This document shows positions 1,931-27,400 of a stretch of 64,000 bases of DNA, in pieces. Numbering within the stretch: position 1 is the first letter of the stretch; each line of letters opens with the position of its first letter. The stretch comes from Simplicispira sp. 125 (lineage in GTDB: Bacteria > Pseudomonadota > Gammaproteobacteria > Burkholderiales > Burkholderiaceae_C): positions 2,170,001 through 2,234,000 of the forward strand of contig NZ_QEKM01000001.1 of NCBI RefSeq assembly GCF_003096555.1, in the 5' to 3' direction. The notes under the pieces were generated by a model, which worked only from the letters and a program-made list of their open reading frames with translations, was not told the origin of the DNA and did not search any database. The position numbers and the translations under genes are program-made.

Positions 1931-2977
1931 TCAGCGCAACTGCGGCATGAACGAACGGGCGGCCTGCACGGCCCCGGCGCCGATGGCTGCACCAAAACGC
2001 TTGGCCAAGCGTTCGGCCACGTTTTCATGGCGCGTGTAGTCGATGATGTCCTCGGCCTTGACGATCTCACGCGCCACATAGTCAAGGTTGCCCAGCTGGT
2101 CTGCCAGGCCCAACTCGATGGCCTGCTGGCCCGTCCAGAACAGGCCGCTGAAGGTGTCGGGCGTGCTCTTGAGCCGGTCGCCCCGGCCTGCCTTCACTAC
2201 GGCGATGAATTGCTGGTGGATCTGGTCGAGCATGGCCAGCGCATAGGCGCGCTGTTTTTCGGTTTGCGGACTGAAGGGGTCGAGAAAACCCTTGTTTTCG
2301 CCCGCCGTCAGCAGACGGCGCTCCACACCCAGTTTCTCCATGGTGCCGGTGAACCCGAAGCCGTCCATGAGCACGCCGATGCTGCCCACAATGCTGGCCT
2401 TGTCCACATAGATGTCGTCGGCCGCGGCAGCAATGTAATAGGCGGCCGAGGCACAGGTCTCCTCGACCACGGCATACACGGGCTTGCCATGCTTGGCCTT
2501 GAGACGCACGATTTCGTCGTTGATCATGCCCGCCTGCACGGGGCTTCCGCCGGGCGAATTGATGAGCAGCACCACCGCCTTGGAGCCGTCGTCTTCGAAG
2601 GCGCTGCGCAGGGCGGCGACCACATATTCGGCGCTGGCGTCGGCGCCAGAGGCGATTTCGCCCTTGATATCGACCACCGCCGTGTGCGGCGCGCTCTTGC
2701 TCGACGAGGTCGCCATATTGCTCGACATCAGCGCCCACGCGAGGGCTCCAAAGAATGCCAGCCAGCACAAGCGCCAAAAAATACGCCAGCGCCGCGCCGC
2801 TCGCTGCTCGTTCAGCGCGGCAAAAGCGAGCTTCTCCAAGACGGAGCGCTCCCAGCCCGGCGCCTGAGCGTCTGCATTTTTTGCTCCTGTATCAGTAGCT
2901 GCCTGCGCCCACAGATCGGGCGTTGCAGCGTTTTTTTGCTCAGATCCATTCGGAGGAAGCTGGTGGGACTCGGTCAT
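1931..2977 (-). CDS. sppA: SppA-type signal peptide peptidase (peptidase S49)
   Basis: A 348-residue membrane-anchored S49 serine peptidase of the short type, expected to degrade cleaved signal peptides. It has a cytoplasmic N-terminal tail, one transmembrane segment near residues 64-84, then the protease domain. Aligned by eye with the short Bacillus SppA, the nucleophile is S177 (TCASAAYY) and the general-base lysine is K229 (ENKGFLDP), with the same 52-residue separation. The SPGGS oxyanion motif is near residue 141. It starts one base after the Rieske gene stop. Residues about 13-33 of the tail are encoded by a copy of the dispersed palindromic repeat, so this part of the protein looks acquired. 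The ATG at 2977 is preferred; no strong ribosome site is visible, which fits coupling. Confidence 0.9.
   Translation of the reverse strand: MTESHQLPPNGSEQKNAATPDLWAQAATDTGAKNADAQAPGWERSVLEKLAFAALNEQRAARRWRIFWRLCWLAFFGALAWALMSSNMATSSSKSAPHTAVVDIKGEIASGADASAEYVVAALRSAFEDDGSKAVVLLINSPGGSPVQAGMINDEIVRLKAKHGKPVYAVVEETCASAAYYIAAAADDIYVDKASIVGSIGVLMDGFGFTGTMEKLGVERRLLTAGENKGFLDPFSPQTEKQRAYALAMLDQIHQQFIAVVKAGRGDRLKSTPDTFSGLFWTGQQAIELGLADQLGNLDYVAREIVKAEDIIDYTRHENVAERLAKRFGAAIGAGAVQAARSFMPQLR
2881..2940 (-). repeat. Dispersed palindromic element, copy 1, inside sppA
   Basis: On the minus strand it reads ACGCTGCAACGCCC, loop, GGGCGCAG, GC, AGCTAC, 7 nt, GGAGC: the two-hairpin pattern of the other copies. 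It is read in frame as SppA residues about 13-33, including QAATDTGAKN, in a poorly conserved cytoplasmic tail. Sense and element orientation agree. Confidence 0.6.
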
Positions 2978-2978
2978 A

Positions 2979-3356
2979 TCAGAACTTGATGGGCTGGATG
3001 TGGCTCGCAGTATGCCAGTGCACCATGCCATCGCTTTCGGTGAGGGCGATCTTCACCAGCCCACCGCGACAGGGACCTGCAACGCAGGTGCCCGTGTCGG
3101 GGGCGTAGGTTGCGCCATGGGTGGCGCACAACAGCCAGCGACCACTGTCGTCGAAAAACCGGTTTTCCTGGTAGTCCATTTCCATGGGCACATGTGCGCA
3201 GCGGTTCAGGTAGGCATGAACAGCCCCCTGGAATCGGACAGCAAAGGCGCGGCAGGTTTCGCCTGCGTACACCACATCGAAGGACACGGCCATGCCGCCG
3301 TCCTGCAGATCGGCACTGGGGCACAGGGGAATGGTGTCGGAAATGTTCGGCATCAT
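2979..3356 (-). CDS. Rieske [2Fe-2S] domain protein
   Basis: A 125-residue single-domain Rieske ferredoxin-like protein. The cluster ligands are C53 and H55 (RCAHVP) and C77 and H80 (CATHGATY), the usual C-X-H and C-X2-H pairs. There is no signal peptide or membrane anchor, so it is cytoplasmic, unlike the bc1 Rieske subunit. It could be an electron donor to an oxygenase, but no oxygenase lies nearby; partner unknown. It sits 20 bases after the HAD gene and one base before the S49 peptidase gene, in the rluC-led unit. Two adjacent ATG codons begin the frame; either could be used. Confidence 0.9.
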   Translation of the reverse strand: MMPNISDTIPLCPSADLQDGGMAVSFDVVYAGETCRAFAVRFQGAVHAYLNRCAHVPMEMDYQENRFFDDSGRWLLCATHGATYAPDTGTCVAGPCRGGLVKIALTESDGMVHWHTASHIQPIKF

Positions 3357-3376
3357 GGCATTGTCAACTGTCGAAA

Positions 3377-4048
3377 TCAGCCCTCACGGGCCAACCAGTC
3401 GTGCAGGTCGGCCACCGATTGTGCGATGTACAGGGGGCCCAGCGCGCCAAAGGCGTCGGGCGCATGCGCGCCGTAGCTCACGCCCAGGCTGGCACACCCG
3501 GCGTTGCGCGCCATCTGCAAGTCGTGCGTGGTGTCGCCAATCATGAGCACGCGCTCGGGCGCCACGTCGAACTCACCCATCAGTTCATGCAGCATCAGCG
3601 GATGGGGCTTGCCCGCCGTTTCGTCGGCCGTGCGAGAGCCATCGAACACCCCGCGAAGCTGCACGCTGTGCAAGGCCTCGTCCAGGCCGCGGCGGCTCTT
3701 GCCCGTGGCGACGGTCAGCAGGTGCCCGCGTTCGCGCAGCGCACCCAGCAAAGGCAACACGCCATGGAACAGGCTCAGGTCGTCCTGGTGGCGGGCGTAG
3801 TGGTAGCGGTAGCGCAGATTGAGATCGCCGTATTTTTCGGGCGGCACATCGGGTGCGGCATGGGCCAGGGCCTGGTTCAATGCCATGCCAATCACATAGG
3901 CGGCGTCACTGTCGCTGGGTACGGTGCCCCCGACATCGCGCACGGCAGACTGGATGCTGCGCACGATGATGGCGGTGGAGTCGAACAAGGTGCCATCCCA
4001 ATCGAAGGCGATCAGGTCAAAACGGCGCGGACGGGCAATAGGGCTCAT
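3377..4048 (-). CDS. HAD-superfamily hydrolase, phosphoglycolate phosphatase-like
   Basis: A 223-residue HAD subfamily IA phosphatase. Motif I is FDWDGTL with D16 and D18, motif II is in VATGKS, and motif IV is GDTTHDLQMA, with the helical cap inserted between motifs I and II. The closest familiar family is phosphoglycolate phosphatase/PGMB-like, but the substrate cannot be fixed from sequence. The ATG overlaps the rluC stop as ATGA, indicating translational coupling to the pseudouridine synthase; rluC-HAD pairing is common in Burkholderiales. A role in metabolite repair is possible but inferred. Confidence 0.9.
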   Translation of the reverse strand: MSPIARPRRFDLIAFDWDGTLFDSTAIIVRSIQSAVRDVGGTVPSDSDAAYVIGMALNQALAHAAPDVPPEKYGDLNLRYRYHYARHQDDLSLFHGVLPLLGALRERGHLLTVATGKSRRGLDEALHSVQLRGVFDGSRTADETAGKPHPLMLHELMGEFDVAPERVLMIGDTTHDLQMARNAGCASLGVSYGAHAPDAFGALGPLYIAQSVADLHDWLAREG

Positions 4049-5076
4049 GGGATAGAGGGAACAAAACAGGCCAGGTCGGGTGGCAGGGGCGCCAGCAGTT
4101 CGATGCGCTCGCCGCTGGCAGGGTGGGTGAACTGCAGCCTCCAGGCATGCAGAAACATGCGCTTGAGGCCGTGGCGGGGCAAACGGCGGTTGAGATCGAA
4201 GTCGCCATATTTCTCGTCCCCGGCAATCGGATGGCCCTGGCTGGCCAGGTGCACGCGAATCTGGTGGGTGCGCCCGGTCTTGATGGTGACCTCCAGCAGC
4301 GAAAACGTGGGCAAATCCTGGTCAGGCCGTGCGGGCAGGCTGGTGCGCAGCTTCACCAGCGTGATGGAACGCATGCCATCGGGATCATCCACCGTGGTGG
4401 TGCGCACACGCCGCTCGCCATCGGGCTGCAGGTATTTGTGCAGCGGCGTATCGATCACCTTCTTGTTCGCGGGCCACGTGCCGATCACCAGCGCCAGGTA
4501 GGTCTTACCGGTCTCCCGCTCGCGGAACTGGTCCTGCAGGTGCGTGAGTGCGCTGCGTTTCTTGGCCACCAGCAGGATGCCCGAGGTTTCGCGGTCGAGC
4601 CGGTGCACCAGCTCCAGAAACTTGGCCTGGGGCCGCGCCTGGCGCATTTGTTCGATCACACCAAAACTCACGCCGCTGCCACCGTGCACCGCTGTGCCGG
4701 CGGGTTTGTCGAGGGCGATGAGGTGCTCATCTTCGAGCAACAAAGGAAACTCCCGCGCTGGCGCGGGGCGTTCAGCCTTCTCGGCCATTTTTTCAGACAC
4801 GCGCACGGGCGGCAGGCGCACCTGGTCTCCTGCCTGCACACGCGTATCGGCCGTGGCGCGCCCCTTGTTGATGCGCACCTCGCCGCTGCGAATGATGCGG
4901 TAGACATGCGTCTTGGGCACGCCCTTGAGGTGGCGCATCAAAAAATTATCCAGCCGCTGGCCCGCGGAGTCAGCGTCCACGTCCAGCATGCGAACGGCGG
5001 GTGCCATGCGCGCGGGCAGGGGCTCTGGCGCCTTGGGACGGTGCGAAGCCGGTTTGGCCTCTATAATGTGTTTCAC
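4045..5076 (-). CDS. rluC: Ribosomal large subunit pseudouridine synthase C
   Basis: A 343-residue RluC/RluD-family synthase that isomerises uridines in 23S rRNA. It has an N-terminal S4 RNA-binding domain (about residues 35-85, KTHVYRIIRSGEVRINKG), then the catalytic domain with HRLDRETSG; D161 is the catalytic aspartate. The reading frame stays open far upstream, but homology begins near a GTG at 5076 (VKHIIEAKPA), which I take as the start; an ATG at 5010 is the alternative. It is the first gene of the minus-strand unit and diverges from rne. A plus-strand TATAAT lies just inside its 5' end, so the two promoters probably overlap. Confidence 0.93.
   Translation of the reverse strand: MKHIIEAKPASHRPKAPEPLPARMAPAVRMLDVDADSAGQRLDNFLMRHLKGVPKTHVYRIIRSGEVRINKGRATADTRVQAGDQVRLPPVRVSEKMAEKAERPAPAREFPLLLEDEHLIALDKPAGTAVHGGSGVSFGVIEQMRQARPQAKFLELVHRLDRETSGILLVAKKRSALTHLQDQFRERETGKTYLALVIGTWPANKKVIDTPLHKYLQPDGERRVRTTTVDDPDGMRSITLVKLRTSLPARPDQDLPTFSLLEVTIKTGRTHQIRVHLASQGHPIAGDEKYGDFDLNRRLPRHGLKRMFLHAWRLQFTHPASGERIELLAPLPPDLACFVPSIP
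5062..5067 (+). promoter_or_regulatory. Putative -10 box of the rne promoter
   Basis: A perfect TATAAT sits on the plus strand at the rluC 5' end. No convincing -35 is present at 16-18 bases. If used, transcription would start near 5074 and give an rne leader of about 590 nt. Long, self-regulating rne leaders are known in gammaproteobacteria; extending this here is inference. Confidence 0.4.
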
Positions 5077-5664
5077 CTGCGCAGTGTTTTGTAAGTAGTT
5101 GATTCGTCTGGAGTTTAGTCCACACGGCCGCTCACCCCGCGCAGGCAGGTCGATGCCAGCGGGCGTTGCACATGCAGATGACAGGCCAGTTGCCTGACAT
5201 GGCCGGTGCACCGCACGGGAGGCTGACACATTGGAACACTGATACGGAATCCCCTGTCTGGCAGGCTGCCCCACCCGGGCCCAGCGTGCCAGAGGATCGA
5301 AGCGAACATGTTGGTACTGGTCATGCGATTTTTGTCCCTCTGGCGGTGGCGTCTGCCGCTGCTGTGGGCAAAAAATTACACCCCAGAGCCCACCCTGCCT
5401 GCGCAACTAGCTATTCAATTTATAGCAAACCTGCACTATTCCAGGCTCGCCCCCATCCACGCGCCCTTGCCGCCCCCGCAGAGCTAGCAGCTGTGCGGGG
5501 CGTTGCAGCATTCCCGGCAATTCCCTTCGTTCCAAAGCGTCAGTCCAGGCATTGTTGGCCCCTTGAGGGCCTGTTGTCAGTATGGAATCACGCGCGCCGA
5601 CAGCCCGCGCAGCATGTTTGCTGCCAGACCGTCGGCGCCCGGCACACACAAAAGGAAATGCATC
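5077..5664. other. 588-bp divergent intergenic region, long rne leader
   Basis: This space separates rluC and rne. It holds no recognised gene. There is one small plus-strand frame at 5308-5490 (59 codons, beginning MLVLVMRFLSLWRWRLPLLW) with a weak GAGGAT ribosome site, a half copy of the dispersed repeat at 5407-5429, and several GC-rich inverted repeats. The likeliest role is the untranslated leader of rne, where RNase E could act on its own message. Confidence 0.5.
5407..5429 (+). repeat. Half copy of dispersed palindromic element (second hairpin only)
   Basis: AGCTATTCAATTTATAGC matches hairpin 2 of the element: AGCTAT, 7-nt loop, ATAGC, followed by AA as in full copies. The first hairpin is not recognisable. 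It lies inside the rne leader. Confidence 0.4.
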
Positions 5665-8600
5665 ATGAAGCGGATGCTGATCAACGCCACGCAGCCTGAA
5701 GAACGGCGCCTGGCCATCGTCGATGGACAAAAACTCCTCGACTACGAAATCGAAATCGAAGGGCGCGAGCAGCGCAAGGGCAACATCTACAAGGCCGTTG
5801 TCACGCGCGTCGAGCCTTCGCTGGAGGCCTGCTTTGTCGACTACGGTGAAGACCGCCACGGTTTCTTGCCGTTCAAGGAAATTGCCCGCCAGTATTTCGC
5901 CGCCGGCGTCTCGCCCAACCAGGCACGCATCAACGACGTCATCAAGGAAGGCCAGGAACTGCTGGTCCAGGTGGAAAAAGAAGAACGTGGCAACAAGGGC
6001 GCCGCCCTCACCACCTTCGTGAGCCTGGCCGGCCGCTATGTGGTGCTGATGCCCAACAACCCGCGTGGCGGTGGCGTAAGCCGCCGCATCGAGGGTGAGG
6101 ACCGCGCCGAACTCAAGGAGGCGATGGACCAGCTCGAATACCCCAACGGCATGTCCATCATTGCGCGCACCGCCGGTATCGGCCGCAGCGCGCCCGAGCT
6201 GCAGTGGGACCTGAACTACCTGCTGAAATTGTGGAACGCCATCGACGGCGCTGCCCAGGGCGGCAAAGGCGCTTTCCTGATTTACCAGGAATCGAGCCTC
6301 GTCATCCGCGCCATCCGCGACTACTTCAACAACGACATCGGTGACATCCTCATAGATACCGACGACATCTACGAACAGGCGCAGCAGTTCATGGCGCACG
6401 TCATGCCCGAGCATGCCGCCCGCGTCAAGCGCTACCGCGACGACGCCGCCCTGTTCTCGCGCTTCCAGATCGAGCACCAGATCGAGTCGGCATACGCCCG
6501 CACCGTGCAACTGCCCTCGGGCGGCGCCATCGTCATCGACCACACCGAAGCGCTGGTCAGCGTGGACGTAAACTCGGCCCGCGCCATCAAGGGCGGCGAC
6601 ATCGAGGAAACCGCCACCCGCACCAACCTGGAAGCCGCCGACGAAGTGGCCCGCCAGATGCGCCTGCGCGACCTGGGCGGCCTGATCGTGATCGACTTCA
6701 TCGACATGGAGGAGAGCAAGAACCGCCGCGAGGTGGAGAGCCGCCTGCGCGACGCCCTGCGCCAGGACCGCGCCCGCGTGCAGTTCGGCACCATCAGCAA
6801 GTTCGGCCTCATGGAAATGAGCCGCCAGCGCCTCAAGCCCGCATTGAGCGAAGGTTCCTCCATCCCCTGCCCGCGCTGCGGTGGCTCGGGCCATATCCGC
6901 GACACCGAATCGTCGGCGCTGCAGATCCTGCGCATCATTCAAGAAGAATCGATGAAGGACAACACCGCCGCCGTGCACTGCCAGGTGCCGGTGGAAGTGG
7001 CTTCGTTCCTGCTGAACGAAAAGCGCACCGAGATCGCCAAGATCGAGCTCAAGCAGCGCGTGGCCGTGCTGATGGTACCCAACAAGGCACTGGAAACACC
7101 CAACTACAAGCTCGAACGCCTCAAGCACGACGACCCACGCCTGGACCATGTGCAGGCCAGCTACACGCTCGCCGAAGAAGTGGAAGACCCCACCGCCGTG
7201 ACACGCCGCTCGCAGGAGCCGACCAACAAGCAAACCCCGGTGATCAAGGGCGTGCTGCCCGACGCCCCGGCACCACAGGCCGCGCCCCGCACCGAAGCAC
7301 AGGCCGAGGCCCGCGCTCCGCGCGCTCCCCAGCGGCAAGCCGCTGCTGCACCCCAGCCGGCTCCGGCACGTGCCCCGGTGGCCCCCCAGGAGCAGGGCTT
7401 CTTTGCCTGGCTCAAGGGCTTGTTCGGTATGGGCGACCCCCCTGCCGCAGCCCCCGCACCGACCCCAGCACCCGCTGCAGAAACCCCAGCCCGCGAGCCG
7501 CGCCGTGATGGACGTGGCGGTGATAGCCGAGGCCGCCGTGGCGAACGCAACGGCAGCCGTGATGGCAACCGCGACGTGAATGGCCGCGATGGCAACCGCG
7601 AAGCCAGTGGCCGTGATGGCGCTGCCGACGGCCGTGGCCGCCGCGGTGAACGCAGCGAGCGCCCATCGGAAGCACGCTCCACCGAGGGTGGTGGTCGTCC
7701 GCCCCGCGACGGCAACCGCGAAGGTGGCCGTGGCCGCCGCGACGGTGCCGAAGCACGCCCCGCAGCCGACGCTCCAACGCAGACAGCCCCCCAAGGCCCG
7801 GACGCGGCAGACAGCGAAAACCGCAACGAGGCACGCGGTGATCGCGCGCCCCGCAACGGCAATGGTGGCCGCGAGCGCCAGCCCCGTGGTGAAGGCCGCG
7901 AGCGCCAGCCCCGCAGTGAAGGCCGTGAACGCCAGCCCCGCGCCCAGGAAAGCCAGCCCAGCAACGCACCGGCGGATTTTGCCGATACCGCTCCACTGGC
8001 ACTGCTGCCCGACCTGGACCTGACAGGCAATGACATGCCCTCCGCAGCGGCGCAGGCCGACACTGGCGAGACCCGCACCCGCCGCTCGCGCGACCGTTAT
8101 GGCCGTGACCGTCAGCGTGGCGAACGTGGCGAGCCGCGCCGCGATGGACAGGAAGCGCCGCCAGCACCCGCAGCGGAAGGCATGATGGACTTCGAGTTGC
8201 CCGGCCAGCCGGTTCAAGCAGCTCCCTCGGACAACAGCCGCCGCAGTTACTTTGCACCCGCAGCCACAGCACCCCAGGCCGCTGAGCCAGCACCAACCCA
8301 GGCACCGGCACCAGTGGCCGCAGCCCCTGCGGTGGCAGCACCTGCACCGGCCATGCCAGCACCAGCCCCCGCGATGGCAGCACCCGTGCCAGCACCCGTG
8401 GCTCCTCCTGCGGCACCGGTCGCAGCACCGGCTGCAGCACCAGTGGCCGCCAGCAATGGCGCCCTGCCGGTCGTCGCGCCCTTCGTGCTGCCGATCGATG
8501 AAATGCAGCAAGTGGCCCAGGGCTCCGGCCTGCAGTGGGTGCAGTCGGACGCTGACAAGGTCGCCGCCATCCAGGCCGCCATTGCCGCCGAACCACGCCC

Positions 8601-8724
8601 CATCCACGTGCCCCGCGTGCGTCCACCGGCCGTGGTGCTAGACGACGGCCCGCTGGTGCTGGTGGAAACCCGCCGCGACCTGCGCGACATGCAGCTGCCG
8701 TTCGATCAGCCGCCAAGCGCCTGA
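5665..8724 (+). CDS. rne: Ribonuclease E
   Basis: A 1019-residue RNase E, the endonuclease that starts mRNA decay and processes rRNA and tRNA, and scaffolds the degradosome. The start [13 protein letters not shown] at 5665 has AAAGGA upstream; an in-frame extension from 5503 lacks homology. The N-terminal half holds the S1, RNase H-like, 5'-sensor and DNase I-like domains; the Zn-link CPRCGG gives C402 and C405. After about residue 510 the protein is disordered: an Arg/Gly-rich block with 9-residue repeats (GRERQPRxE), an Ala/Pro-rich linker, and a short conserved terminus ([20 protein letters not shown]) that may bind a partner. The gene is monocistronic, closed by a strong terminator. Confidence 0.97.
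7870..7950 (+). repeat. 27-bp tandem repeats in rne (GRERQPR units)
   Basis: Three near-identical 27-base units encode successive 9-residue blocks of type GRERQPR-[GSA]-x within the disordered arginine-rich region of RNase E. Arg-rich blocks in RNase E bind RNA and helicases. Unit number is likely to vary between strains because such repeats slip easily. Confidence 0.8.
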
Positions 8725-8767
8725 GGACCGGCACGGACGCCCACCAGCGACTGTGCCGATTGATGGA

Positions 8768-8799
8768 CCACTGGCCCCGCTTGGGGCCAGTGGCTTTTT
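8768..8799 (+). terminator. Rho-independent terminator of rne
   Basis: An 11-bp perfect stem (CCACTGGCCCC / GGGGCCAGTGG) with loop GCTT, followed by CTTTTT. It lies between rne and yaaA and separates their transcription. Confidence 0.93.
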
Positions 8800-8814
8800 G
8801 GAGACCCGCACGCC

Positions 8815-9588
8815 ATGATGATTTTGCTGTCCCCCGCCAAATCGCTCGACTATGACACCCCCGTCCCCGCCGACCTGCCGCACACGCGGCCGCAGTTCGT
8901 TGCGCAATCCCAGCAGCTCATCGAGATACTGCGACAGAAATCCCCACAAGACATTGCCTCGTTGATGAAGATCAGCGACCCGCTGGCCGCGCTGAACGTG
9001 GCGCGCTACCAAGCCTGGTCGAGCCGGTTCAGCGCCCGCAATGCGCGCCAGGCGCTGCTGGCCTTCAATGGCGATGTGTACGAAGGTTTGGATGCGCGCA
9101 CGCTGGCCGCTGAAGACCTGGCCTGGGCGCAGCAGCACCTGGCCATTCTCAGTGGCCTGTATGGCGTGCTGCGTCCGCTCGACTGGATGCAGCCCTACCG
9201 GCTGGAAATGGGCACACGACTGGCCACCCCGGCAGGCCAGACGCTCTACCAATTCTGGGGGCCGCGCATTGCCCTGTATCTCAACGCCTGCCAGCAGGAC
9301 GAAGAGGCACCCGTGGTGCTCAACCTGGCATCACAAGAATATTTCAAGTCGGTGGACCGCAAGCAGCTGCGCGCCCGGGTGGTCGAATGCGTGTTCGAGG
9401 ACTGGAAAAACGGCACCTGGAAAATCATCAGCTTCCACGCCAAGCGTGCGCGCGGCCTGATGGCACGCCATGCCATTACGCAGCGCGCCGCCACCCCCCG
9501 CCAGCTCGAAGACTTTGCCGCCGAGGGCTACGCCCATGACATCGGCGCGTCCAGCCCCGATCGTCTGGTGTTCCGCCGACGGGTCTGA
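8815..9588 (+). CDS. yaaA: Peroxide stress protein YaaA (DUF328/UPF0246)
   Basis: A 257-residue YaaA-family protein. In E. coli YaaA limits intracellular iron and oxidative DNA damage during peroxide stress and binds DNA. The hallmarks are present: start [12 protein letters not shown], the [11 protein letters not shown] segment, [18 protein letters not shown] and the C-terminal [13 protein letters not shown] block with catalytic-like basic residues. Length is typical. It follows the rne terminator by 16 bases, so its promoter must overlap the terminator or it uses residual read-through. The next gene begins within 20 bases, suggesting cotranscription with the dioxygenase. Confidence 0.95.
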
Positions 9589-9606
9589 GTGGGGTTAGAA
9601 AGCGCT

Positions 9607-10308
9607 ATGGTCCCAGCTGTTACGCCGACCTCATTGTCCTTTCCCGAAACCCGCCCCCTGCCAGGCCAAGGGCTGCACAGCGGCCCGCATCGCATCGACC
9701 TGAACGGGCACAGCGTGCAGCGCTTGCTGGCGATCGACAAACCGCCGTTGGTGGTGCTGGCAAACCTGCTCAGCGCGAGCGAATGCACCGCCCTGATCGA
9801 CGCCGCGCGCCCCCACATGGCGCGCTCGCTCACGGTGCAGCAGCACACCGGCGGCGAAGAGCGCAACGCCCACCGCACCAGCGACGGCATGTTCTTCCAG
9901 CGGGCCGAAACCCCGCTGGTGCAGCACATCGAGGAGCGCCTGTCGCGCCTGCTGGGCTGGCCCGCCGGGAACTGCGAAGGCCTGCAAGTGCTGCGCTACG
10001 GCCCGGGCGCCGAGTACCGGCCGCATTACGACTACTTCGATCCGGCCGAACCCGGCACCAGCACCCTGTTGCAGCGCGGCGGCCAGCGCCTGGCCACGCT
10101 GTTGATCTACCTGAACACGCCCGACGAGGGCGGCGCCACCACCTTCCCCGACCTTGGCCTGGAGGTGGCCCCGCTGCGCGGCCATGCCGTATTCTTCCGC
10201 TACGACCAGCCCCACCCCAGCAGCCGCACCTTGCATGGTGGCGCGCCTGTGGTCACAGGTGAAAAATGGGTGGCCACGCAATGGCTGCGCGAAAGAAAAT
10301 TTGACTAA
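9607..10308 (+). CDS. 2-oxoglutarate/Fe(II) dioxygenase, prolyl 4-hydroxylase type
   Basis: A 233-residue P4Hc-family dioxygenase. The iron triad is H140 and D142 (RPHYDYFDP) with H210 (TLHGGAPV), and K220 (GEKWVATQW) binds the 2-oxoglutarate carboxylate, so the active site is complete. Bacterial members hydroxylate proline in proteins such as elongation factors, but the target here is unknown. I prefer ATG 9607; GTG 9589 is possible and would abut the yaaA stop. The stop codon TAA (10306-10308) lies at the left edge of a dispersed palindromic repeat, so the native C-terminus may have been trimmed or replaced by insertion. Confidence 0.9.
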   Translation: MVPAVTPTSLSFPETRPLPGQGLHSGPHRIDLNGHSVQRLLAIDKPPLVVLANLLSASECTALIDAARPHMARSLTVQQHTGGEERNAHRTSDGMFFQRAETPLVQHIEERLSRLLGWPAGNCEGLQVLRYGPGAEYRPHYDYFDPAEPGTSTLLQRGGQRLATLLIYLNTPDEGGATTFPDLGLEVAPLRGHAVFFRYDQPHPSSRTLHGGAPVVTGEKWVATQWLRERKFD

Positions 10309-10362
10309 AATACGGCTCAAACGCTTACCAGTAAAGCGCTACTAGCTATTTTTTTGATAGTA
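10306..10362 (+). repeat. Dispersed palindromic element, copy 2
   Basis: AAACGCTT, 7 nt, AAGCGCTA, CT, AGCTAT, 7 nt, ATAGT: both hairpins with the standard geometry. It fills the gap between the dioxygenase, whose TAA is its left edge, and queF, whose ATG is four bases beyond the right edge. Confidence 0.85.
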
Positions 10363-10365
10363 CAC

Positions 10366-11211
10366 ATGTCCTCTGCAGACCAATCTCCCCTGGGCAAGGC
10401 GTCCGCCTATATCGACCAGTACGACGCCTCGCTGCTGTTCCCCCTGCCGCGCGCAGGCAAGCGGGCCGAGATCGGTATCACGGGCAACCCGCCTTTCATG
10501 GGTGCCGACCTGTGGACCGCGTTTGAGCTGTCATGGCTCAACGAACGCGGCAAGCCCCAGGTGGCGCTGGCACACATTACCGTGCCCTGCGAAACGCCGA
10601 ACATCATCGAGAGCAAATCGTTCAAGCTGTACCTCAACAGTTTCAACAACACCCGCTTTTCCGGCGTTGAGGCCGTGCAGGCACGCCTGCGCGCCGACCT
10701 CACCGAGGCCGCGTGGCGCGGCGCACCGCAGTCGGCCAGCCTGGGCGTGCGGGTCCTGCTGCCCGAATTGTTTGACCGTGAGCCGGTCCACGAACTCGAT
10801 GGCCTGAACCTGGACCGCCTCGACCTGGAATGCAAGCACTACCAGCCGGCACCGCAACTGCTGCGCGCCGCTTTCGACGAGGCGCCCGTGAGCGAGGTGC
10901 TGGTCAGCCACCTGCTCAAGAGCAACTGCCTGGTCACCGGCCAGCCCGACTGGGGCAGCGTGCGCATTGCCTACACCGGCCCGCAAATCGAGCAGGAAGG
11001 GCTGCTGCAGTACATCGTGAGCTTTCGCAACCACAACGAGTTCCACGAACAATGCGTGGAGCGCATCTTCATGGACCTCTGGACGCGCTGCAAACCCATC
11101 AAGCTGGAGGTGTATGCGCGCTACACCCGCCGGGGCGGGCTGGACATCAACCCCTGGCGCACCAGCCATCCCATGGCGCCGCCGCCCAACGTGCGCACGG
11201 CGCGGCAATAG
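10366..11211 (+). CDS. queF: NADPH-dependent 7-cyano-7-deazaguanine reductase
   Basis: A 281-residue long-form QueF (EC 1.7.1.13) that reduces preQ0 to preQ1, a step in queuosine synthesis. The tunnelling-fold pair is present: the N-terminal half carries [13 protein letters not shown], and the C-terminal half carries catalytic C188 ([12 protein letters not shown]) with D195. [16 protein letters not shown] is the second-half hallmark. I place the start at ATG 10366 ([10 protein letters not shown]), directly after the palindromic repeat, rather than an upstream in-frame codon at 10354 that lies within the repeat. The ribosome site would have to be supplied by the repeat (TTTGATAGT), and is weak. 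No other queuosine genes are near. Confidence 0.95.
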
Positions 11212-11223
11212 TCCAACCGCCAG

Positions 11224-12783
11224 CTACACCTTGAACACGTCGAGCGTGCGGCCCAGCACACCGGCGTTGTCGCTCATGGCGCGGGCCGAAGCGGCGGATT
11301 CTTCGACCAGCGCAGCGTTTTGCTGCGTGACACGGTCCAGCTCGATCACGGCCTCGTTCACCTGCGCAATACCCTGGGCCTGCTCGCGCGTGGCAATGCT
11401 GATCTGGCCCATCAGGGTATTGACATAGGCCACCGACTGCACCACCTTGGCAATGGTTTTGCCGGCCGACTGCATCTGCCCGGCGCCCCGCTCGATGTGC
11501 GCGCTGGATTCGCCAATCAGCCCACGGATTTCACCGGCCGCGGTGGCGCTGCGCTGCGCCAGCGCCCGCACTTCGCTGGCCACCACGGCGAAACCCCGGC
11601 CCTGCTCGCCAGCACGTGCAGCTTCGACGGCGGCATTGAGCGCGAGAATGTTGGTCTGGAAGGCGATGCCCTCGATGGTAGAAATGATCTGGCCCATCTT
11701 GCCCGACGACTGCGCAATGGCCTGCACCACCGTACCCACCTGGGCTACGGCTTCGCCGCCACTGCGCGCCAGCTCGGCACTGCGCTCACTTTCTTTTTGC
11801 ACCTGCTGCGTGGTTTCCGCCGATTGGCGCACCGTGCTGGACAATTCTTCCATCGAGGCCGCTGTTTCCTCCAGGCTGCTGGCCTGCGATTCGGTGCGCT
11901 CGGACAGGTCTTGCGCGCCCTGCGCAATGCCAGACGAAATGGAGCCGAAGGCCCTGATTTCCTGGCGCGCATCGCCCACCACGGCGCGCAAATTGAGGTG
12001 GATGCGCTGCAGGCGCTCCAGCAGCCGCTCCACGGGGCTGTTGCCTTCCACGGGGCTTTGTGGCTGGGCCAGATCACACCCGGCGATCTCGGTCATCAAC
12101 TGCTCGGCGTCGGCCAGCGGCGCGGCAACAATGCACTGAAACCGCCACAGCATGAACGCGGACAGCGCCAGCAGCACCACGGCCTGGCCGATCATCACCT
12201 CGGGGCCCGCCCAACCCAACAGGCCCGGCGCGAGCGCGGCCACCAGAATGGGAAGCAGCAGCGCAACGAGGCGCTGCGTGAGGCCGAAACGCTGCAGCTT
12301 TCCCAGTTGGTTGCGCAAGCCGGGACGGCGCACGCGCCCGGCATGCAGCCAGAAACTGCTGGCCCCGCGCTCCCGTTCCTCGCGGATCTGGGCGTACAAG
12401 GCCTCGGCGGCGCGCACCTCGTCGCGCGTGGGCTTGACACGCACCGACATGTAGCTGCGCGGCTTGCCGGCCACCATCATGGGGGTGACATTGGCGCGCA
12501 CCCAGTAGAAGTCGCCGTTCTTGCGCCGGTTCTTCACGATGCCGGTCCAGTTGCGGCCCCGGCCGATGGTGGCCCACAGATCCTTGTAGGCCTCGGGCGG
12601 CATGTCGGGGTGGCGGATCAGGCTGTGCGGCTGGCCCATCAACTCCTCCATGGAGTAACCGCTGACACGCGCAAAGGCGGCATTGCAGTGCGTCATCACA
12701 CCCTTGGCGTCAGTCGTCGACATCAGAAGCTCTTCGCCTGGGTAGTCGTATTCGTGGGAGGTGACGGGCAGGTTGACGCGCAT
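11224..12783 (-). CDS. Aer-like PAS methyl-accepting chemotaxis protein
   Basis: A 519-residue aerotaxis-type receptor. The N-terminal PAS domain (about residues 1-125) starts [20 protein letters not shown], the Aer signature for FAD-binding redox sensing. A hydrophobic hairpin near residues 165-210 anchors it without a periplasmic sensor. The MCP signalling domain follows, with the conserved tip region containing [20 protein letters not shown]. There is no C-terminal CheR-tethering pentapeptide (it ends LDVFKV). It would signal to CheA/CheW on oxygen or energy state. It is a single gene; the 191-base space upstream holds its promoter and a dyad at 12910-12925. Confidence 0.92.
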
Positions 12784-14277: not shown

Positions 14278-14922
14278 TCAGGACCGGCGCCGCCGGGGCA
14301 CCACGCTCAGCGGCACGCTTTCAAGCACCGGTGCAGCGCCGATCTGCAGCGCACGGCGCGGCAAGTCCACCAGTTGCTCAGGATGCCAGACGCGCAGTTG
14401 CGCAGCTCCTTCGGGAATCTGGTCGAAGCGGGCAATCCCGTCGGCATCGGTCTTGAGGGTATAGGCCGAATCGGTGACGAACAAATGGCCGCGCATCGAA
14501 CCATGCAAGTGGCAGCCCAGCAGCACGGCGCCTGGCTCCTGTACGACCACATCGGCCTCACCACCCGTGGCGTCGGCTGTGGCACCGGCCAGGCGCATCT
14601 CGAAGTTCGTGCCTAAAGGCGCGCCAGGGACATTGTTCACCGCCGCCGTTCCCCGGATATGGTGGTCCCAGCGATCGAGGTTGGTGAAACGTACCCGGCT
14701 CCCAGGGGCCACCACGGTGACCAGGGGAACGAAACGCATGCGCTGCTGCCCGATGGTGGCATTGCTGGCCACCGGTGCTGCCGGGGTGCTGGGATAGACC
14801 ACCACCACGGCATCAGGCACCGGGCGGCCTTCTTTGTCCAGCACCTGGACTTGCACATTTCCGGCGGTAACGCTTGCTACCATTGCGCAAGCAGCTATCA
14901 AAAACAGAGTTTTGCGCAGCAT
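14278..14922 (-). CDS. Exported cupredoxin-like protein (methylamine utilisation protein type)
   Basis: A 214-residue periplasmic protein. Residues 1-20 form a signal peptide ending SVTA-GNV. The body is a cupredoxin-like beta-sandwich with likely type 1 copper ligands: H87 or H88 (RWDHHIRG), and C137, H140, M143 (GCHLHGSM). The spacing in the second cluster is shorter than in plastocyanin but typical of the methylamine-utilisation-protein subfamily. A carboxypeptidase-regulatory-like beta domain may follow. It begins two bases after the truncated globin stop and belongs to the DUF3034-globin-cupredoxin unit, so an electron-transfer role with the haem protein is plausible. The signal-peptide codons overlap a possible copy of the dispersed repeat. 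Confidence 0.82.
   Translation of the reverse strand: MLRKTLFLIAACAMVASVTAGNVQVQVLDKEGRPVPDAVVVVYPSTPAAPVASNATIGQQRMRFVPLVTVVAPGSRVRFTNLDRWDHHIRGTAAVNNVPGAPLGTNFEMRLAGATADATGGEADVVVQEPGAVLLGCHLHGSMRGHLFVTDSAYTLKTDADGIARFDQIPEGAAQLRVWHPEQLVDLPRRALQIGAAPVLESVPLSVVPRRRRS
14863..14907 (+). repeat. Possible dispersed palindromic element within a signal peptide
   Basis: Contains TAACGCTT, then TGCGCAA, GC and AGCTAT as in other copies, but the second hairpin lacks its closing arm. It encodes about residues 6-19 of the cupredoxin signal peptide on the opposite strand. The match is weaker than elsewhere, and signal-peptide codons could mimic it. Confidence 0.4.
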
Positions 14923-15406: not shown

Positions 15407-15426
15407 GGCAATGTTCTGCAGCGGGT

Positions 15427-17758: not shown

Positions 17759-17854
17759 AGCGCCCGGCTGCGGCCATCAAAATAATTTGCGTGGCCATGC
17801 AACAAATTCAAAACCGGCTCGGCTGCGCCCCTGGAGTGGATGGCAAAACACAGG

Positions 17855-17916
17855 ATAAAAATAGCCTCTAACGCTTATCCATCAAGCGCTAACAGCTCTA
17901 TTTTCAATAGCAATCA
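17855..17916 (+). repeat. Dispersed palindromic element, copy 3
   Basis: TAACGCTT, 7 nt, AAGCGCTA, AC, AGCTCT, 7 nt, ATAGC. Its right edge supplies the TGA stop of the diguanylate cyclase (minus strand, 17914-17916). Outer bases AAAATAG and CTATTTT also pair, so the whole unit can fold. Confidence 0.9.
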
Positions 17917-20229: not shown

Positions 20230-20280
20230 TGTAGGTGCAAGCAAACATTTGATTACCAATGAACAGGCGTGCGGGCGGCG

Positions 20281-22629
20281 TCAGCGCCTTGCGACCCCCG
20301 CGCCACGCACCTCGATGCGCACCTCATCGAGCACCGTGCCCCGCGCATCGGTCAGCTGCACCACATGGCGGCCCGGCCACGGCAGCCAGGCCCATTGCAC
20401 GCCCCGGCCTACGGGCTTGCCATCCATGCGCCAGCGCAGCGGCATGCCCGCCGCAGGGCCGCCCGCCTCGAACTGCAGGCGCTGGCGCAGCGGGGGAATA
20501 TCGGGGTCGAGCGCGATGATGGTGCCCGACACCGGTGTGGCAATGTGCACCGCAGAAAGAGGGGCCGCCCCGCCTGCAGTGGTTGCGGGCTGCCCCCTGT
20601 TTTTTAAGTGTTTTTGGCCTTTAACGACCGTAGATAAAGCGCCACCAGCTACGATATCCATAGCAAAAATGCCTTGCTGCGTGCCCGGTACGAACCATTC
20701 GCTGCGCGCCGCCTCCAGCGGCAGGGGGCTGCCAGGGGCGGGCCCAAAGCGCACGGCGGTGCGCACCAGGGTGCGCGGCGGTGCGGGCGCGCGGCTGGGC
20801 GTGTGCGCGTGCAGGTAGGCCATCACGGCCGCCCAGACCGGGGCCGCGCCGCTGCTGCCGCTCACATCGTGCATGGCCGCGCCGCTGGCGTTGCCCACCC
20901 ACACGCCCACGGTGTAGCGTGCAGACCAGCCCACGGCCCAGTTGTCGCGCATGTCCTTGCTGGTGCCGGTTTTGACGGCGCTCCAGAAGCGCGTGGCCAG
21001 CACGCTGTCGGTGCCGAAGGTGCGCGCCCGGGCGTTGCCGTCGGACAGGATGTCGCCCACGATGAACGCCGCCTGGGCGCCCAGCACCGGCCGCAAGGCG
21101 GGTACCACCTTGCGCACGGGCAGCACCGGCGGAGCCACCGGACTGTAGCGCCCCCCATTGGCCAGGGCGCGGTAGGCGTTGGCCAGGTGCAGCAGGGGCA
21201 CCTCGCTGCTGCCCAGGGCAAGGCTGTAGCCAAAATAGCCCCCGCTCTCGCGCAGCGGCAGGCCCAGCGCCACCAGTTGCCGAAAGAACGCATCGGGCGA
21301 GACCATGACCAGGGTGCGCACCGCCGGCACATTGAGCGAGGACGCCAGCGCCGTGCGCACCGACACCCAGCCCTTGAACTGGCGGTCGTAGTTTTGCGGA
21401 ATGTAGAGCCCCCCCGCCGTGGCAATGTGGGCAGAAGAGTCCTCGATGAGCGAGGCGGCGGTCAGCCGCCGCTGATCAATCGCCTGTGCATACAAAAAAG
21501 GCTTGAGGGTGGAGCCCGGCTGGCGCAGCGCCAGCACGCCATCGACCTCGGCGGCCTGGCTGAGCAGGCCCGACGAACCCACCCAGGCCAGCACCTCGCC
21601 CGTGGCGTTGTCGAGCACCACAATGGCGCCGTCTTCCACCTGGCGGCCCTGCAACTCGCGCAGGTGCTGTTCCAGCGTTTGCACGGCAAAGCGCTGCAAG
21701 GGCGCGCGCAGCGTGGTGGTGATGCGCGCTGGCGGCGCCGCCCCGCCCTCTGCCTGCGCCAGCGCCCGCCGCGCAAAATGCGGCGCCACGCCTTCGCTGG
21801 CGGCCCAGCCGCGCCGCTGCAGGGCGGCGCTGACAAACAGGTCAAGCGCATCGCAATCGACCCGCGGCCCTGGCGCCTTGCCCTGCATGTCGCGCAGCAT
21901 ACCGCAGGCGCGTTGGGTGACGACGGCCGGCGCGGCATTGGGGCCGCGCACCAGCGCGGCGGCCACGGCGGCCTCGCGGTCGTCCAGCCCGTGCGCGGCT
22001 TTGCCAAACAGGGTGCGGCTGAGTGCATCAATACCCACCAGCTCGCCCCGAAACGGCACGAGGTTGAGGTAGGCCTCCAAAATCTGGTCTTTGCGCCAGC
22101 GCCGGTCCAGCACCTGCGCGGCCACGGTCTGGCCGAGCTTTTGCACCACGCTGCGCCCGCCGGGCCGCTGGCGCAGGTCGGCCATGTCGGGGCTGTCAAG
22201 CAGGCCCGCCAGTTGCATGGTCAGGGTGCTGGCGCCGCGCGTGCGCTGGTTCCACAAATTACCCCAGGCGGCGGCTGTGGCGGCGCGCCAGTCCACACCG
22301 CTGTGCGCATAAAAGCGCTTGTCTTCCGACAGCACCATGGCGGTGCGCAGCGCGGGCGACACATCGGCCAGCGGCACCCACGCCCCGCGCCGCACCTGGG
22401 CATCGGTGCGCACACGCTGCAGCACCTCACCCTCGCGCGACAGCAGTACGGTTTCAGACGACTGGAAATCCTGGCGCACTTCGTCAAACGTGGGCAGGGC
22501 CCAGGCCAGGGAGGGCCCCAGCGCCAGACCCACCCACCACGCACAGCGCCAGGGCGCCACCAGCTCCCACCGAGGACGGAGACCCGTGGGTCGGTCAATA
22601 GAGATCAGGCGCAGCAGGCGGTGGAACAT
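20281..22629 (-). CDS. pbpC: Penicillin-binding protein 1C (bifunctional class A)
   Basis: A 782-residue PBP1C. After a membrane anchor near residues 25-45 comes a GT51 glycosyltransferase domain (EDKRFYAHSGVDWRA, RGASTLTMQLA), a transpeptidase domain (SxxK in PGSTLKPF, SLN, KTGTSKD), and the PBP1C-specific C-terminal domain (VSGTIIALDPDIP). In E. coli it forms peptidoglycan but binds few beta-lactams. Residues about 654-674, between the transpeptidase and C-terminal domains, are encoded by a palindromic repeat copy (antisense to the element), adding a stretch such as DIVAGGALSTVVKGQKH that looks foreign. The usual partner, an alpha-2-macroglobulin-like gene, is not adjacent within the window. 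Confidence 0.94.
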   Translation of the reverse strand: MFHRLLRLISIDRPTGLRPRWELVAPWRCAWWVGLALGPSLAWALPTFDEVRQDFQSSETVLLSREGEVLQRVRTDAQVRRGAWVPLADVSPALRTAMVLSEDKRFYAHSGVDWRAATAAAWGNLWNQRTRGASTLTMQLAGLLDSPDMADLRQRPGGRSVVQKLGQTVAAQVLDRRWRKDQILEAYLNLVPFRGELVGIDALSRTLFGKAAHGLDDREAAVAAALVRGPNAAPAVVTQRACGMLRDMQGKAPGPRVDCDALDLFVSAALQRRGWAASEGVAPHFARRALAQAEGGAAPPARITTTLRAPLQRFAVQTLEQHLRELQGRQVEDGAIVVLDNATGEVLAWVGSSGLLSQAAEVDGVLALRQPGSTLKPFLYAQAIDQRRLTAASLIEDSSAHIATAGGLYIPQNYDRQFKGWVSVRTALASSLNVPAVRTLVMVSPDAFFRQLVALGLPLRESGGYFGYSLALGSSEVPLLHLANAYRALANGGRYSPVAPPVLPVRKVVPALRPVLGAQAAFIVGDILSDGNARARTFGTDSVLATRFWSAVKTGTSKDMRDNWAVGWSARYTVGVWVGNASGAAMHDVSGSSGAAPVWAAVMAYLHAHTPSRAPAPPRTLVRTAVRFGPAPGSPLPLEAARSEWFVPGTQQGIFAMDIVAGGALSTVVKGQKHLKNRGQPATTAGGAAPLSAVHIATPVSGTIIALDPDIPPLRQRLQFEAGGPAAGMPLRWRMDGKPVGRGVQWAWLPWPGRHVVQLTDARGTVLDEVRIEVRGAGVARR
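20609..20668 (+). repeat. Dispersed palindromic element, copy 4, inside pbpC
   Basis: TTTTTGGCCTTTAACG, then ATAAAGCGCCA, CC, AGCTAC, 7 nt, ATAGC and AAAA. It matches the copy before the hydrolase gene at 52716 closely, including the right end ATAGCAAAA. The first hairpin arm is degenerate. It is translated in frame in pbpC from the opposite strand. Confidence 0.75.
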
Positions 22630-22961
22630 GGCGCCGCAGCATAGCAGCGGGGGCTGGCACGATGTGCGAAGCCCTCCTCCCGAGGGGCATCAGCGCGGCA
22701 GTTCGCTCGATCCCATCAGAAACTGGTCCACCGAGCGCGCCGCTTGACGGCCTTCGCGCCGCGCGCGCAGTGCGCGTTCATTCCTTCCCGCCCTGGGCGA
22801 CCGGGAAGGCCGAACCCGGAACGTTTCAACGCGGCAGTTCGCTTGATCCCATCAAGAACTGGTCTACCGAGCGCGCCGCTTGTCGGCCTTCGCGCCGCGC
22901 GCGCAGTGCGCGTTCATTCCTTCCCGCCCTGGGCGACCGGGAAGGCCGAACCCGGAACGTT

Positions 22962-24437
<1,476 letters not shown>

Positions 24438-24477
24438 GTCTGTGTCCTTGTGAATGATGTGCTGGCAGCGAGCGGCC

Positions 24478-27400
24478 TCAAGGGGCCACTTTTGCTACTG
24501 TTTCTGTAGCTTCTACCGCTGGTGTAGCGGACTCTTCAAGCACTTTTCTTTCATATATTTCAGACAGGGCGCGCTTGTATTCGGTGGGGAACACCTTGAC
24601 GAATTTGCTGCGCGATGCGGCCCAGTGGTCGAGCAGTTCGCGCGCACGCTTGCTGCCGGTCCAGCGGTTGTGGTCTTCCAGCATTTTCTTGAGCTGGGCT
24701 TCGTCGGTCTGGTCGCGGTGCCAGGTGGCACGCGGCGTGGTGGCCATTTGCTCGTCACTGGGCAGGATGCGTTCGAGCGTGACCATAGACAGGTTGCAAC
24801 GGGTGTCGAACTGGCCGTCCTCGTCGTACACATAGGCCACGCCGCCGCTCATGCCCGCCGCGAAGTTGCGGCCGGTCTGGCCCAGCACCACCACGGTGCC
24901 GCCGGTCATGTATTCGCAGCCATGGTCGCCCGTGCCTTCCACCACCGCAGTGGCTCCCGACAGGCGCACAGCAAAGCGCTCGCCGGCCACGCCGCTGAAA
25001 TAGGCCTCGCCGCTGGTGGCGCCGTACATGACGGTGTTGCCCACGATGGTGTTGCGCGCAGCATCGCCCCGAAAGTCGATGCTCGGGCGCACGATCACGC
25101 GGCCGCCCGACAGGCCCTTGCCCGTGTAGTCGTTGGCGTCGCCAATCAGGTACAGCGTGATGCCACGGCACAAGAAAGCGCCAAACGACTGGCCGCCCGT
25201 GCCTTCGAGCTGGATGCGGATGTTGTCGTCGGGCAAGCCCTCAGGGTGCAGGCGGGTGACTGCACCCGAGAGCATGGCGCCGACCGAGCGATTCACGTTG
25301 CGCACCACTTCGATGAACTGCACACGCTCGCCCTTTTCGATGGCGGGCTGGCTGCGCTCGATGAGCTTGCGGTCCAGCGTGTGCTCAATGTCGTGGTCTT
25401 GGACTTGAACATGGAAGCGCGGTACGTCGGCGGGCACGATGGGTTGGGCGAACAGGCGGCCGAAATCGAGGCCACGGGCCTTCCAGTGCTCCAGGCCCTT
25501 GCGCATATCGAGCAGGTCGGTGCGGCCAATCAGGTCGTCAAACTTGCGCACGCCCAGTTGCGCCATGATTTGGCGCACTTCTTCGGCCACGAAGAAGAAG
25601 TAGTTGACGACATGCTCAGGCTTGCCCGAGAACTTGGCGCGCAGCACCGGGTCTTGCGTGGCCACGCCCACGGGGCAGGTGTTGAGGTGGCATTTGCGCA
25701 TCATGATGCAGCCCTCGACCACCAGCGGCGCCGTGGCAAAGCCGAACTCGTCGGCACCGAGCAGCGCACCAATCGCCACATCGCGGCCGGTTTTCATCTG
25801 CCCGTCGGCCTGCACACGGATGCGCCCGCGCAGGCGGTTGAGCACCAGGGTCTGCTGGGTTTCGGCCAGGCCGATTTCCCACGGACCGCCGGCGTGCTTG
25901 ATGGACGACCAGGGCGATGCGCCCGTGCCGCCATCGTGGCCGGCGATCACGACGTGGTCGCTCTTGCACTTGGCCACGCCCGCCGCAATGGTGCCCACAC
26001 CCACTTCGGACACCAGCTTGACGCTGATGCTGGCGTGCGGCGCGACGTTTTTCAGGTCGTGGATGAGCTGCGCCAAGTCTTCAATGGAATAAATGTCATG
26101 GTGCGGCGGGGGCGAGATCAAGCCCACGCCAGGCACGCTGTGGCGCAGCTTGCCGATGTAGTTGGACACCTTGCCGCCGGGCAGCTGGCCGCCCTCGCCC
26201 GGCTTGGCGCCCTGGGCCATCTTGATCTGGATCTGGTCGGCGCTGCTGAGGTATTCGGCCGTGACGCCAAAACGCCCCGAGGCGACTTGCTTGATGCGGC
26301 TGCGCAGCGAGTCACCGTCCAGCAAAGGCAGGTCGACCTCGACGTTCTCGGGACCGATCACGCTCTTGAGGCTGTCGCCCTGCTTGATCGGGATGCCCTT
26401 GAGTTCATTGCGGTAGCGCGCGGCATCTTCACCGCCCTCGCCCGTATTGCTCTTGCCGCCGATGCGGTTCATGGCCACGGCCAGGGTGGCATGGGCTTCG
26501 GTAGAAATCGAGCCCAGCGACATGGCGCCCGTGGCAAAGCGCTTGACGATGTCCTTGGCGGGTTCGACCTCGTCCAGCGGGACAGCCTTGGCGGGATCGA
26601 ACTGGAACTCGAACAGGCCACGCAGGGTCATGTGGCGCTTGCTTTGGTCGTTGACCAGCTGGGCGTATTCCTTGTAGGTGCTCCAGTTGTTGGCGCGCGT
26701 GGCATGTTGCAGCTTGGCGATGGTGTCGGGCGTCCACATGTGCTCCTCACCGCGTGTGCGCCAGGCGTACTCCCCGCCGGTATCGAGCATGTGGGCCAGC
26801 ACCGGGTCACCGCCAAAGGCGTCCTTGTGCATGCGGATCGCTTCTTCGGCGATTTCAAACACGCCAATGCCTTCGACCCGGCTGGCGGTGCCGGTGAAGT
26901 ACTTGCCGACGGTGTCGCTGCTCAGGCCGATGGCCTCGAACAGCTGGGCGCCGCAGTAGCTCATGTAAGTGCTCACGCCCATTTTGGACATGATTTTGGA
27001 CAGCCCTTTGCCGACGGCTTTGACGTAGTTGGTGATGGCCTTGTCGGCGGACAGATCGCCGCCCAGGTCCTTGTGCATATCGGCCAGGGTTTCCATGGCC
27101 AGATAGGGGTGCACGGCCTCGGCGCCGTAGCCGGCGAGCACGGCAAAGTGGTGCACCTCGCGCGCAGTACCCGTTTCGACCACCAGGCCCGCCGTAGTGC
27201 GCAGCCCTTCGCGCACCAGGTGCTGGTGGATGCTGGAGAGCGCCAGCAGCGCAGGAATGGCCACCTGCGTGGCACCTACTCCGCGGTCGCTGATGATGAG
27301 AATATTGGCACCGCCACGGATTTCATCGACCGCCTGCGCGCACAGCGAGGCGAGCTTGGCCTCGACACCTTCGCGGCCCCAGGACAGCGGGTAGGTGATG

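Follow-up and report, generated by a model that had tools for sequence, protein, structure and literature searches.

A dispersed 60 bp palindromic repeat translated inside genes of Simplicispira sp. 125 resembles a maintained signal, possibly for uptake of related DNA, more than an insertion of junk DNA

The Repeat at the Locus and in the Genome

The window considered here, a stretch of 64,000 bp, covers bases 2170001-2234000 of the 3.97 Mb single-contig genome of Simplicispira sp. 125, and its subject is a dispersed repeat of about 60 bp with dyad symmetry, copies of which lie within sppA, pbpC, gltB and a cupredoxin-like gene (Table 1). The initial annotation had described these four copies, those in gltB and the cupredoxin gene as probable, as an element that unrelated proteins accommodate in frame where they are tolerant, sense in SppA and GltB and antisense in PbpC and the cupredoxin-like protein, and had given their peptides and a GCT read as alanine in all of them. 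This description is borne out, and the model of the repeat recovers all four copies, the GltB one weakly (E 0.035). The name cupredoxin is that of the initial annotation, because Pfam gives only CarboxypepD_reg, below the cut-off.

The family was seen in the window by repeat search (family D2), and its abundance is beyond chance, a 26-base core pattern with at most 3 mismatches having 266 matches genome-wide versus 1 for the reversed-pattern control. A covariance model of the 60 bp repeat was built from 30 aligned copies found by the core pattern; unfiltered search of the window with it gave 25 matches at E≤10, of which 13 were kept as sites and 12 were dropped as opposite-strand overlaps, short or weak. 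Together with 40 stretches of 20 kb the window forms a genome sample of 864 kb. In these stretches the model gave 154 matches at E≤1, which were reduced by eye to 121 sites, the 33 discarded matches overlapping a better one and being nearly all the palindrome read on the opposite strand. The resulting 134 sites extrapolate to approximately 600 copies per genome. The majority base of 71 intergenic copies reads AGTAAAATTGGCCTCTAGCGCTTATTCATCAAGCGCTAGCAGCTATCAAATTAATAGCAA, with AAA, CGC, AAGCG, AGCTAT, and TAG as the best-conserved segments.

Table 1: Copies of the repeat and associated genes in the window (positions are those of the window).
Feature	Position	Strand	Score	Remarks
sppA, S49 peptidase gene	1931-2977	-		Pfam PF01343; start from orthologues and gene finder
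Copy inside sppA	2881-2940	-	33.7 bits, E 8.7e-7	Sense, phase 0; peptide EQKNAATPDLWAQAATDTGA; orthologues compared
Intergenic copy	5369-5428	+	24.5 bits	Corresponding site in G012, G016, G022, G024 has related sequence
Copy overlapping 3' end of gene 9634-10308	10304-10363	+	54.2 bits	
Cupredoxin-like gene	14278-14922	-		Open reading frame
Copy in signal peptide of cupredoxin-like gene	14853-14912	+	21.1 bits, E 0.0017	Antisense, phase 0
Intergenic copy	17854-17913	+	77.1 bits	Top score in own genome
pbpC	20281-22629	-		Pfam: Transgly, Transpeptidase, BiPBP_C
Copy in PbpC linker before BiPBP_C domain	20607-20666	+	26.3 bits, E 7.5e-5	Antisense, phase 0; orthologues compared
gltB	24478-29229	-		Pfam
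Degenerate copy in GltB C-terminal tail	24492-24551	-	16.1 bits, E 0.035	Sense, phase 0; weak
Y1_Tnp gene	29396-30103	-		Domain 29726-30052; sole match in genome, of the REP-associated tyrosine transposase (RAYT) type; just upstream of gltB
Intergenic copy	33371-33430	+	42.5 bits	Ends 2 bases before gene at 33432
Copy overlapping stop of upstream gene (44511-45788)	45779-45838	+	73.2 bits	
Intergenic copy	52715-52774	+	65.2 bits	
Copy across 3' end of gene 52776-53687	53670-53729	-	21.9 bits	
Doubtful copy	57607-57666	+	15.5 bits, E 0.049	
Intergenic copy	59275-59334	-	36.1 bits	

Placement and Reading Phase of the Copies

The element sits in permissive stretches, namely, just behind stop codons and in protein loops, linkers, tails, and signal peptides. 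According to a home-made hexamer gene finder, 82 of the 134 sampled copies lie in spacers, 36 inside genes (though two of these, L161:12222 and L179:14443, begin at a predicted start and are perhaps misassigned), and 16 across gene edges, including the cupredoxin-like copy, counted there because the finder misplaces the start of this gene; by the same predictions 85% of random 60-mers fall inside genes. Among the gene ends that flank spacer copies, 68 of 97 3' ends and 26 of 65 5' ends are within -10 to +20 bases of the copy. Where both neighbours are known (81 spacer copies), 22 copies are found between convergent and 6 between divergent genes, against a background of 61 convergent and 79 divergent among 411 spacers of at least 50 bp.

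Of the 33 in-gene copies outside the window, 30 were examined with Pfam, and the domains, from which the protein names are read, indicate as carriers, among others, DapF, TruB, ThiL, MutL, LigA, PriA, DnaX, PepN, AceE, and TilS, together with HsdR, ComEC, and a CinA-domain protein. As a raw tally, mutL, ligA, priA, and dnaX among the 36 are suggestive of genome-maintenance genes being perhaps favoured. No clear over-represented short core word was found in coding sequence outside the model matches. Antisense phase-0 copies stand at the N-terminus of three exported-looking proteins (L180:6566-6625, Chalcone_3; L176:8546-8605, DsbD; and the cupredoxin-like protein of the window), so that the role of a signal peptide is apparently within reach of the element.

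The initial annotation had the element always in the same phase, which holds for the four named sites and becomes a clear preference genome-wide: 22 of the 31 gap-free in-gene copies are in the phase where GCT is alanine (11 sense and 11 antisense, frames s0 and a0) and 9 are in other phases. In columns 11-58 of the 71 gap-free intergenic copies the frame s1 is open 46 times, s0 36, a0 33, a1 14, s2 6, and a2 once, while s1 is used only twice by the in-gene copies. Stop codons alone are therefore rejected as the cause of the preference, since another sense frame is open in more intergenic copies and rarely used in genes; tolerance of the encoded peptide is our guess for a further cause.

Distribution and Concerted Loss

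Among 60 relatives, with at most 91 candidates scored per genome, 30 have a model match at E≤0.001 and all of these belong to one family, G031 having only 2 matches and G004 only 4. A wider draw, under stricter filters and limited to 27 scored candidates per genome, indicates the repeat in 71 of 200 genomes of the family and in 50 of 126 genera. The exact pattern is present in at least 120 stretches of species genomes. Carriers among the matches listed are Acidovorax (temperans, facilis, defluvii, radicis, and others), Simplicispira, Alicycliphilus, Extensimonas, Comamonas, Polaromonas, and Rhodoferax, together with metagenome-assembled genomes titled Comamonadaceae, Burkholderiaceae, Burkholderiales, or beta proteobacterium and one isolate titled Gammaproteobacteria.

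At orthologous sites, with presence read at E≤1 and own copies included, the element is found in repeat-bearing genomes at 23 of 25 loci in SppA, 19 of 21 in PbpC (the fragment L085 being left out of the search), 20 of 25 in DapF, 21 of 22 in TruB, and 16 of 18 in ComEC, versus none of 5, 8, 5, 8, and 12, respectively, in repeat-free or repeat-poor genomes; pooled, these are 99 of 111 against 0 of 38 loci. The cupredoxin-like site is matched in the four nearest loci (L121-L124, own included, weakest E 0.059) and in none of four distant ones (L125-L128). At the GltB site 14 of 26 loci from repeat-bearing genomes (own included) match at E≤5 and 3 of 26 at E≤0.05, with none of four in repeat-free genomes. 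Sister genomes allowed 43 comparisons at 14 of the 134 sites, mostly of about equal length and related sequence, though some were not; the spacer sites L189:158 and L159:8466 differ in length between relatives.

A FastTree phylogeny from a concatenation of five proteins (2018 columns for 32 genomes, with G026 as root, topology read without support values) places G002, G004, and G007, with 0, 4, and 0 matches, inside the repeat-bearing clade, and G033, with 0 matches, as sister to G027, with 59. Both lineages are without the element in every tested gene and hold 0-4 copies genome-wide. Because the SppA, DapF, and TruB copies of G027 occupy the positions that they have in the own genome, these copies look ancestral and lost in sister lines, and their joint loss across genes points to a trans-acting factor that maintains them.

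Conservation as DNA and Length of the Sites

Unlike a drifting insert, the element keeps its DNA sequence as the protein around it changes. In SppA, PbpC (23 of 30 loci), DapF, and TruB it was asked whether an identical residue is written with the same codon, at own codons ending in A or T. The codon is kept in 522 of 655 cases (80%) inside the element versus 1693 of 4668 (36%) elsewhere in these genes and genome pairs, even though residue conservation is lower inside (0.57 versus 0.78); the group with the element holds a few copies missed by the model. In orthologues classed as without it, which include five DapF orthologues from repeat-bearing genomes, the figures are 24 of 124 inside and 502 of 1270 elsewhere. 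Third codon positions in five genes, with 20 of 30 PbpC loci and the five DapF exceptions counted as bearing, match the consensus at 0.79 in high-information and 0.42 in low-information columns of repeat-bearing genomes, and at 0.24 and 0.25, respectively, in repeat-free ones. None of these counts are independent, since the relatives share ancestry.

The number of residues between conserved anchors flanking the site bears on the expectation, set out in the initial annotation, that alignment with orthologues would reveal a clean insertion of about 20 residues. PbpC fits this expectation, with 44-72 residues in bearers versus 27-38 in seven free genomes, and the GltB tail does not, since there 23 of 26 bearers have 34 residues (39, 44, and 53 in three) and four free genomes have 32-39. 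TruB has 37 residues in all 22 bearers and all 6 of the repeat-free genomes measured; for two more, which fall outside the anchor pattern, alignment was used instead, with no gap in G026 and 4 residues fewer in G032. In DapF the bearers have 41 or 43 residues, G031 and G033 have 41, G004 has 40, and G002 and G007 have 44. ComEC has 31 in 17 of 18 bearers (39 in one) as well as in G002 and G004; of 10 genomes from other families 8 have 26, and the remaining two have 35 and 38. SppA has 36-43 in bearers, 37-38 in G002, G004, and G007, and, in the outgroups, 36 in G026 and 24 in G031. In comparison with solved homologues the region is longer by approximately 10 residues in DapF, 4 in TruB, 7 in PepN, 7 in ThiL, and 9 in AceE, never by 20, and MccB/PccB is aligned without a gap, 0 residues longer.

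Thus, an extra block of the Rickettsia palindromic element (RPE) type fits PbpC, may fit SppA, and is lacking in TruB, DapF, GltB, ComEC, and MccB. At most sites it was existing codons that turned into the element, often with some lengthening of the loop. The equal length in G002, G004, and G007 counts for little here, because these genomes descend from carriers, and the weight of the argument lies on G026, G030, G031, the other families, and the solved homologues.

Hairpins and Mobile Elements

In 86 copies the number of paired cells per stem pair is close to the expectation for independent columns, the largest excess being 64 versus 57.9, and shuffling of the alignment of 30 copies reaches the observed covariation score in 64 of 500 trials. 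A hairpin function was accordingly rejected: compensatory stem changes are absent and the arms are conserved as sequence, so that, as stem columns do not covary, the element is to be regarded as a linear motif. Rfam at gathering scores gave no match in the window. In the vicinity of the Y1_Tnp gene the only model match, of 7 bits, lies at 30157-30203. The spacer near 29350 contains AATAGCTTATAACGCTT, which by eye is like part of the element; the model gives no match there.

The exact pattern is found in 22 stretches of a viral collection. One copy used as query had no match among 50,697 phage records and two weak matches among 72,556 plasmid records.

Elsewhere in the window, a 136 bp tandem repeat (22690-23097) separates pbpC from the end of the gene that follows on the minus strand; its second copy is 96% and its third 60% identical to the first, which looks like partial duplication. 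At 5674-8724 the coding score puts the real gene on the plus strand, with short repeats at 7556-7609, and a Pfam scan of the 1066 aa minus-strand open reading frame there gave no match.

Interpretation and Rival Explanations

The repeat is best explained as a linear chromosomal DNA signal, whose likeliest reader would be the natural-transformation machinery, that is, as a DNA uptake sequence kept by molecular drive; this is held tentatively, at slightly under even odds (about 0.47), and the uptake function would be assigned by analogy. The element would arise and persist in place within permissive stretches, something in trans would read the sequence, and DNA with better matches would be taken up and recombined preferentially by the transformation machinery; once the reader was lost the copies would decay. 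The phase preference would then be a filter, in which only stop-free frames with tolerable peptides survive. As in known uptake sequences, there are hundreds of over-represented copies, conserved above their surroundings at permissive places, in a genome with the competence gene comEC, and origin in place is seen in TruB, DapF, GltB, ComEC, and MccB and not in PbpC. Natural transformation is reported for Acidovorax temperans, A. facilis, and Verminephrobacter eiseniae, in the last of which the authors suspected sequence specificity (PMC4212676); the uptake explanation gains support because the carriers include the first two of these species.

Several observations weigh against an uptake signal. 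The same study saw transformation neither between Acidovorax species nor, in any form, in A. defluvii (PMC4212676), which carries the motif. ComEC (PF03772), present in the own genome and in 35 of 40 genomes searched, is present also in the repeat-poor G002 and G004 and does not discriminate, so that its loss as the cause of repeat loss is not supported. The usually accessory type I restriction gene hsdR holds a good copy (L190:4764-4823, 49.3 bits), which is unexpected if signals avoid accessory genes. The DapF copy is absent in five repeat-bearing genomes; these loci (L215-L218 and L220, one subclade) are only 68-71% identical to the own protein and possibly represent a replaced gene. By their alignments the PbpC site looks like an insertion and the SppA site may be one. 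The known uptake motifs are of about 10-12 bp (29 bp extended in Haemophilus influenzae) and non-palindromic, and the element differs from them in its approximately 60 bp, its dyad symmetry, and its sequence. Non-allelic gene conversion, finally, could also keep copies alike.

The main rival, judged unlikely and yet a serious one, is a binding site of a putative chromosomal DNA-binding protein (nucleoid, segregation, or regulatory), kept by ordinary selection at each site. Conserved blocks with dyad symmetry and without covariation are what such a site would have, concerted loss fits the loss of the protein, and the 1.98-2.38 Mb bin of the G000 chromosome, 0.4 Mb in length, holds 18 plus-strand versus 3 minus-strand copies among the 150 best, the other bins being less one-sided; however, about 600 copies of 60 bp seem many for such a site, and the copies hug gene 3' ends on either strand, with few between divergent genes, which suits placement at permissive sites better than a regulatory role. 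In-frame insertion of a mobile palindromic element in the RPE manner, with some copies later overwriting or losing neighbouring residues, is improbable. It would account for a PbpC linker approximately 6-20 residues longer in bearers, for an SppA longer than in the outgroup G031, for solved homologues 4-10 residues shorter in 5 of 6 informative cases, and for the variable length of some spacer sites (L189:158 and L159:8466), but it is already contradicted by the missing block in TruB, DapF, GltB, ComEC, and MccB, by conservation at the DNA level instead of drift, by a sole Y1 transposase match with no clear copy beside it, and by the absence of phage matches and only two weak plasmid matches, the 22 viral-contig stretches notwithstanding. 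Least credible of all is non-allelic gene conversion that keeps dispersed copies alike with no function: it would likewise give DNA-level similarity, and the loop between the arms does vary among orthologous copies in the examples inspected, yet 60 bp between unrelated flanks is short for homologous exchange, and gene conversion alone explains neither in-place origin nor loss in two lineages.

Significance

If the repeat is an uptake signal, an environmental family would join those with sequence-specific DNA uptake, and one oligonucleotide would make the specificity suspected in Verminephrobacter testable. A bolder statement, with the odds somewhat against it, is that Comamonadaceae would here provide the first DNA uptake or recombination signal from outside Neisseriaceae and Pasteurellaceae, and one (~60 bp) far longer than the others, rewriting parts of perhaps 150 ordinary proteins per genome in place and holding their codons, so that a DNA signal, and not the protein, would dictate residues of core enzymes. 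Its priority rests on literature searches, among which a search with k-mers of the repeat returned no paper about such a repeat, judged by titles and abstract openings, and another no paper on a DNA uptake sequence in Comamonadaceae. Whatever the reader, DNA-level selection or drive outlasts protein-level change inside core genes, and the repeat-free sister lineages are natural controls.

Comparison with Known Systems

The cassette recombination site attC (59-base element) of integrons is defined by its fold, its sequence being variable. It shares with the element a similar length and a AAGCGTTA-like box; the element, in contrast, has a fixed sequence, pairing without covariation, and no Rfam match in the window, and attC was rejected on this definition and the lack of covariation, no integrase search having been made. 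Repetitive extragenic palindromic (REP) and REPIN elements, which are associated with RAYTs, are likewise abundant short palindromic repeats; however, the element is also found inside genes, is of about 60 bp, is without stem covariation, and has one Y1 transposase in its genome with no clear copy beside it, so that a REP/RAYT system was also rejected. REPs are given as 20-40 bp and are extragenic by name (PMC3733652).

With RPEs the element has in common a palindromic repeat translated in frame at tolerant sites of conserved proteins, and to this extent the parallel drawn in the initial annotation stands. It fails in block insertion: RPEs are inserts, described as 105-146 bp insertions with terminal inverted repeats (PMC2229807), while at TruB, DapF, GltB, ComEC, and MccB of the present genomes no inserted block is found and the DNA is actively conserved.

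The likeness is closer to the DNA uptake sequences of Neisseriaceae and the uptake signal sequences of Pasteurellaceae, which share with the element hundreds of copies, both intergenic and in genes, at permissive sites, strong conservation, origin in pre-existing sequence, and clade restriction, and the host family here includes naturally transformable species. The Neisseria sequences are reported to be highly conserved at permissive core-genome sites and to arise by recombination where homologous regions are without the motif (PMC2397512), uptake motifs are said to accumulate in pre-existing sequence, with the H. influenzae consensus extending to 29 bp (PMC1939737), and a bias in their intragenic distribution is known (PMC2346458). 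By this analogy the element behaves like an uptake sequence, and it resembles those of Neisseria and Haemophilus more than it does the RPEs.

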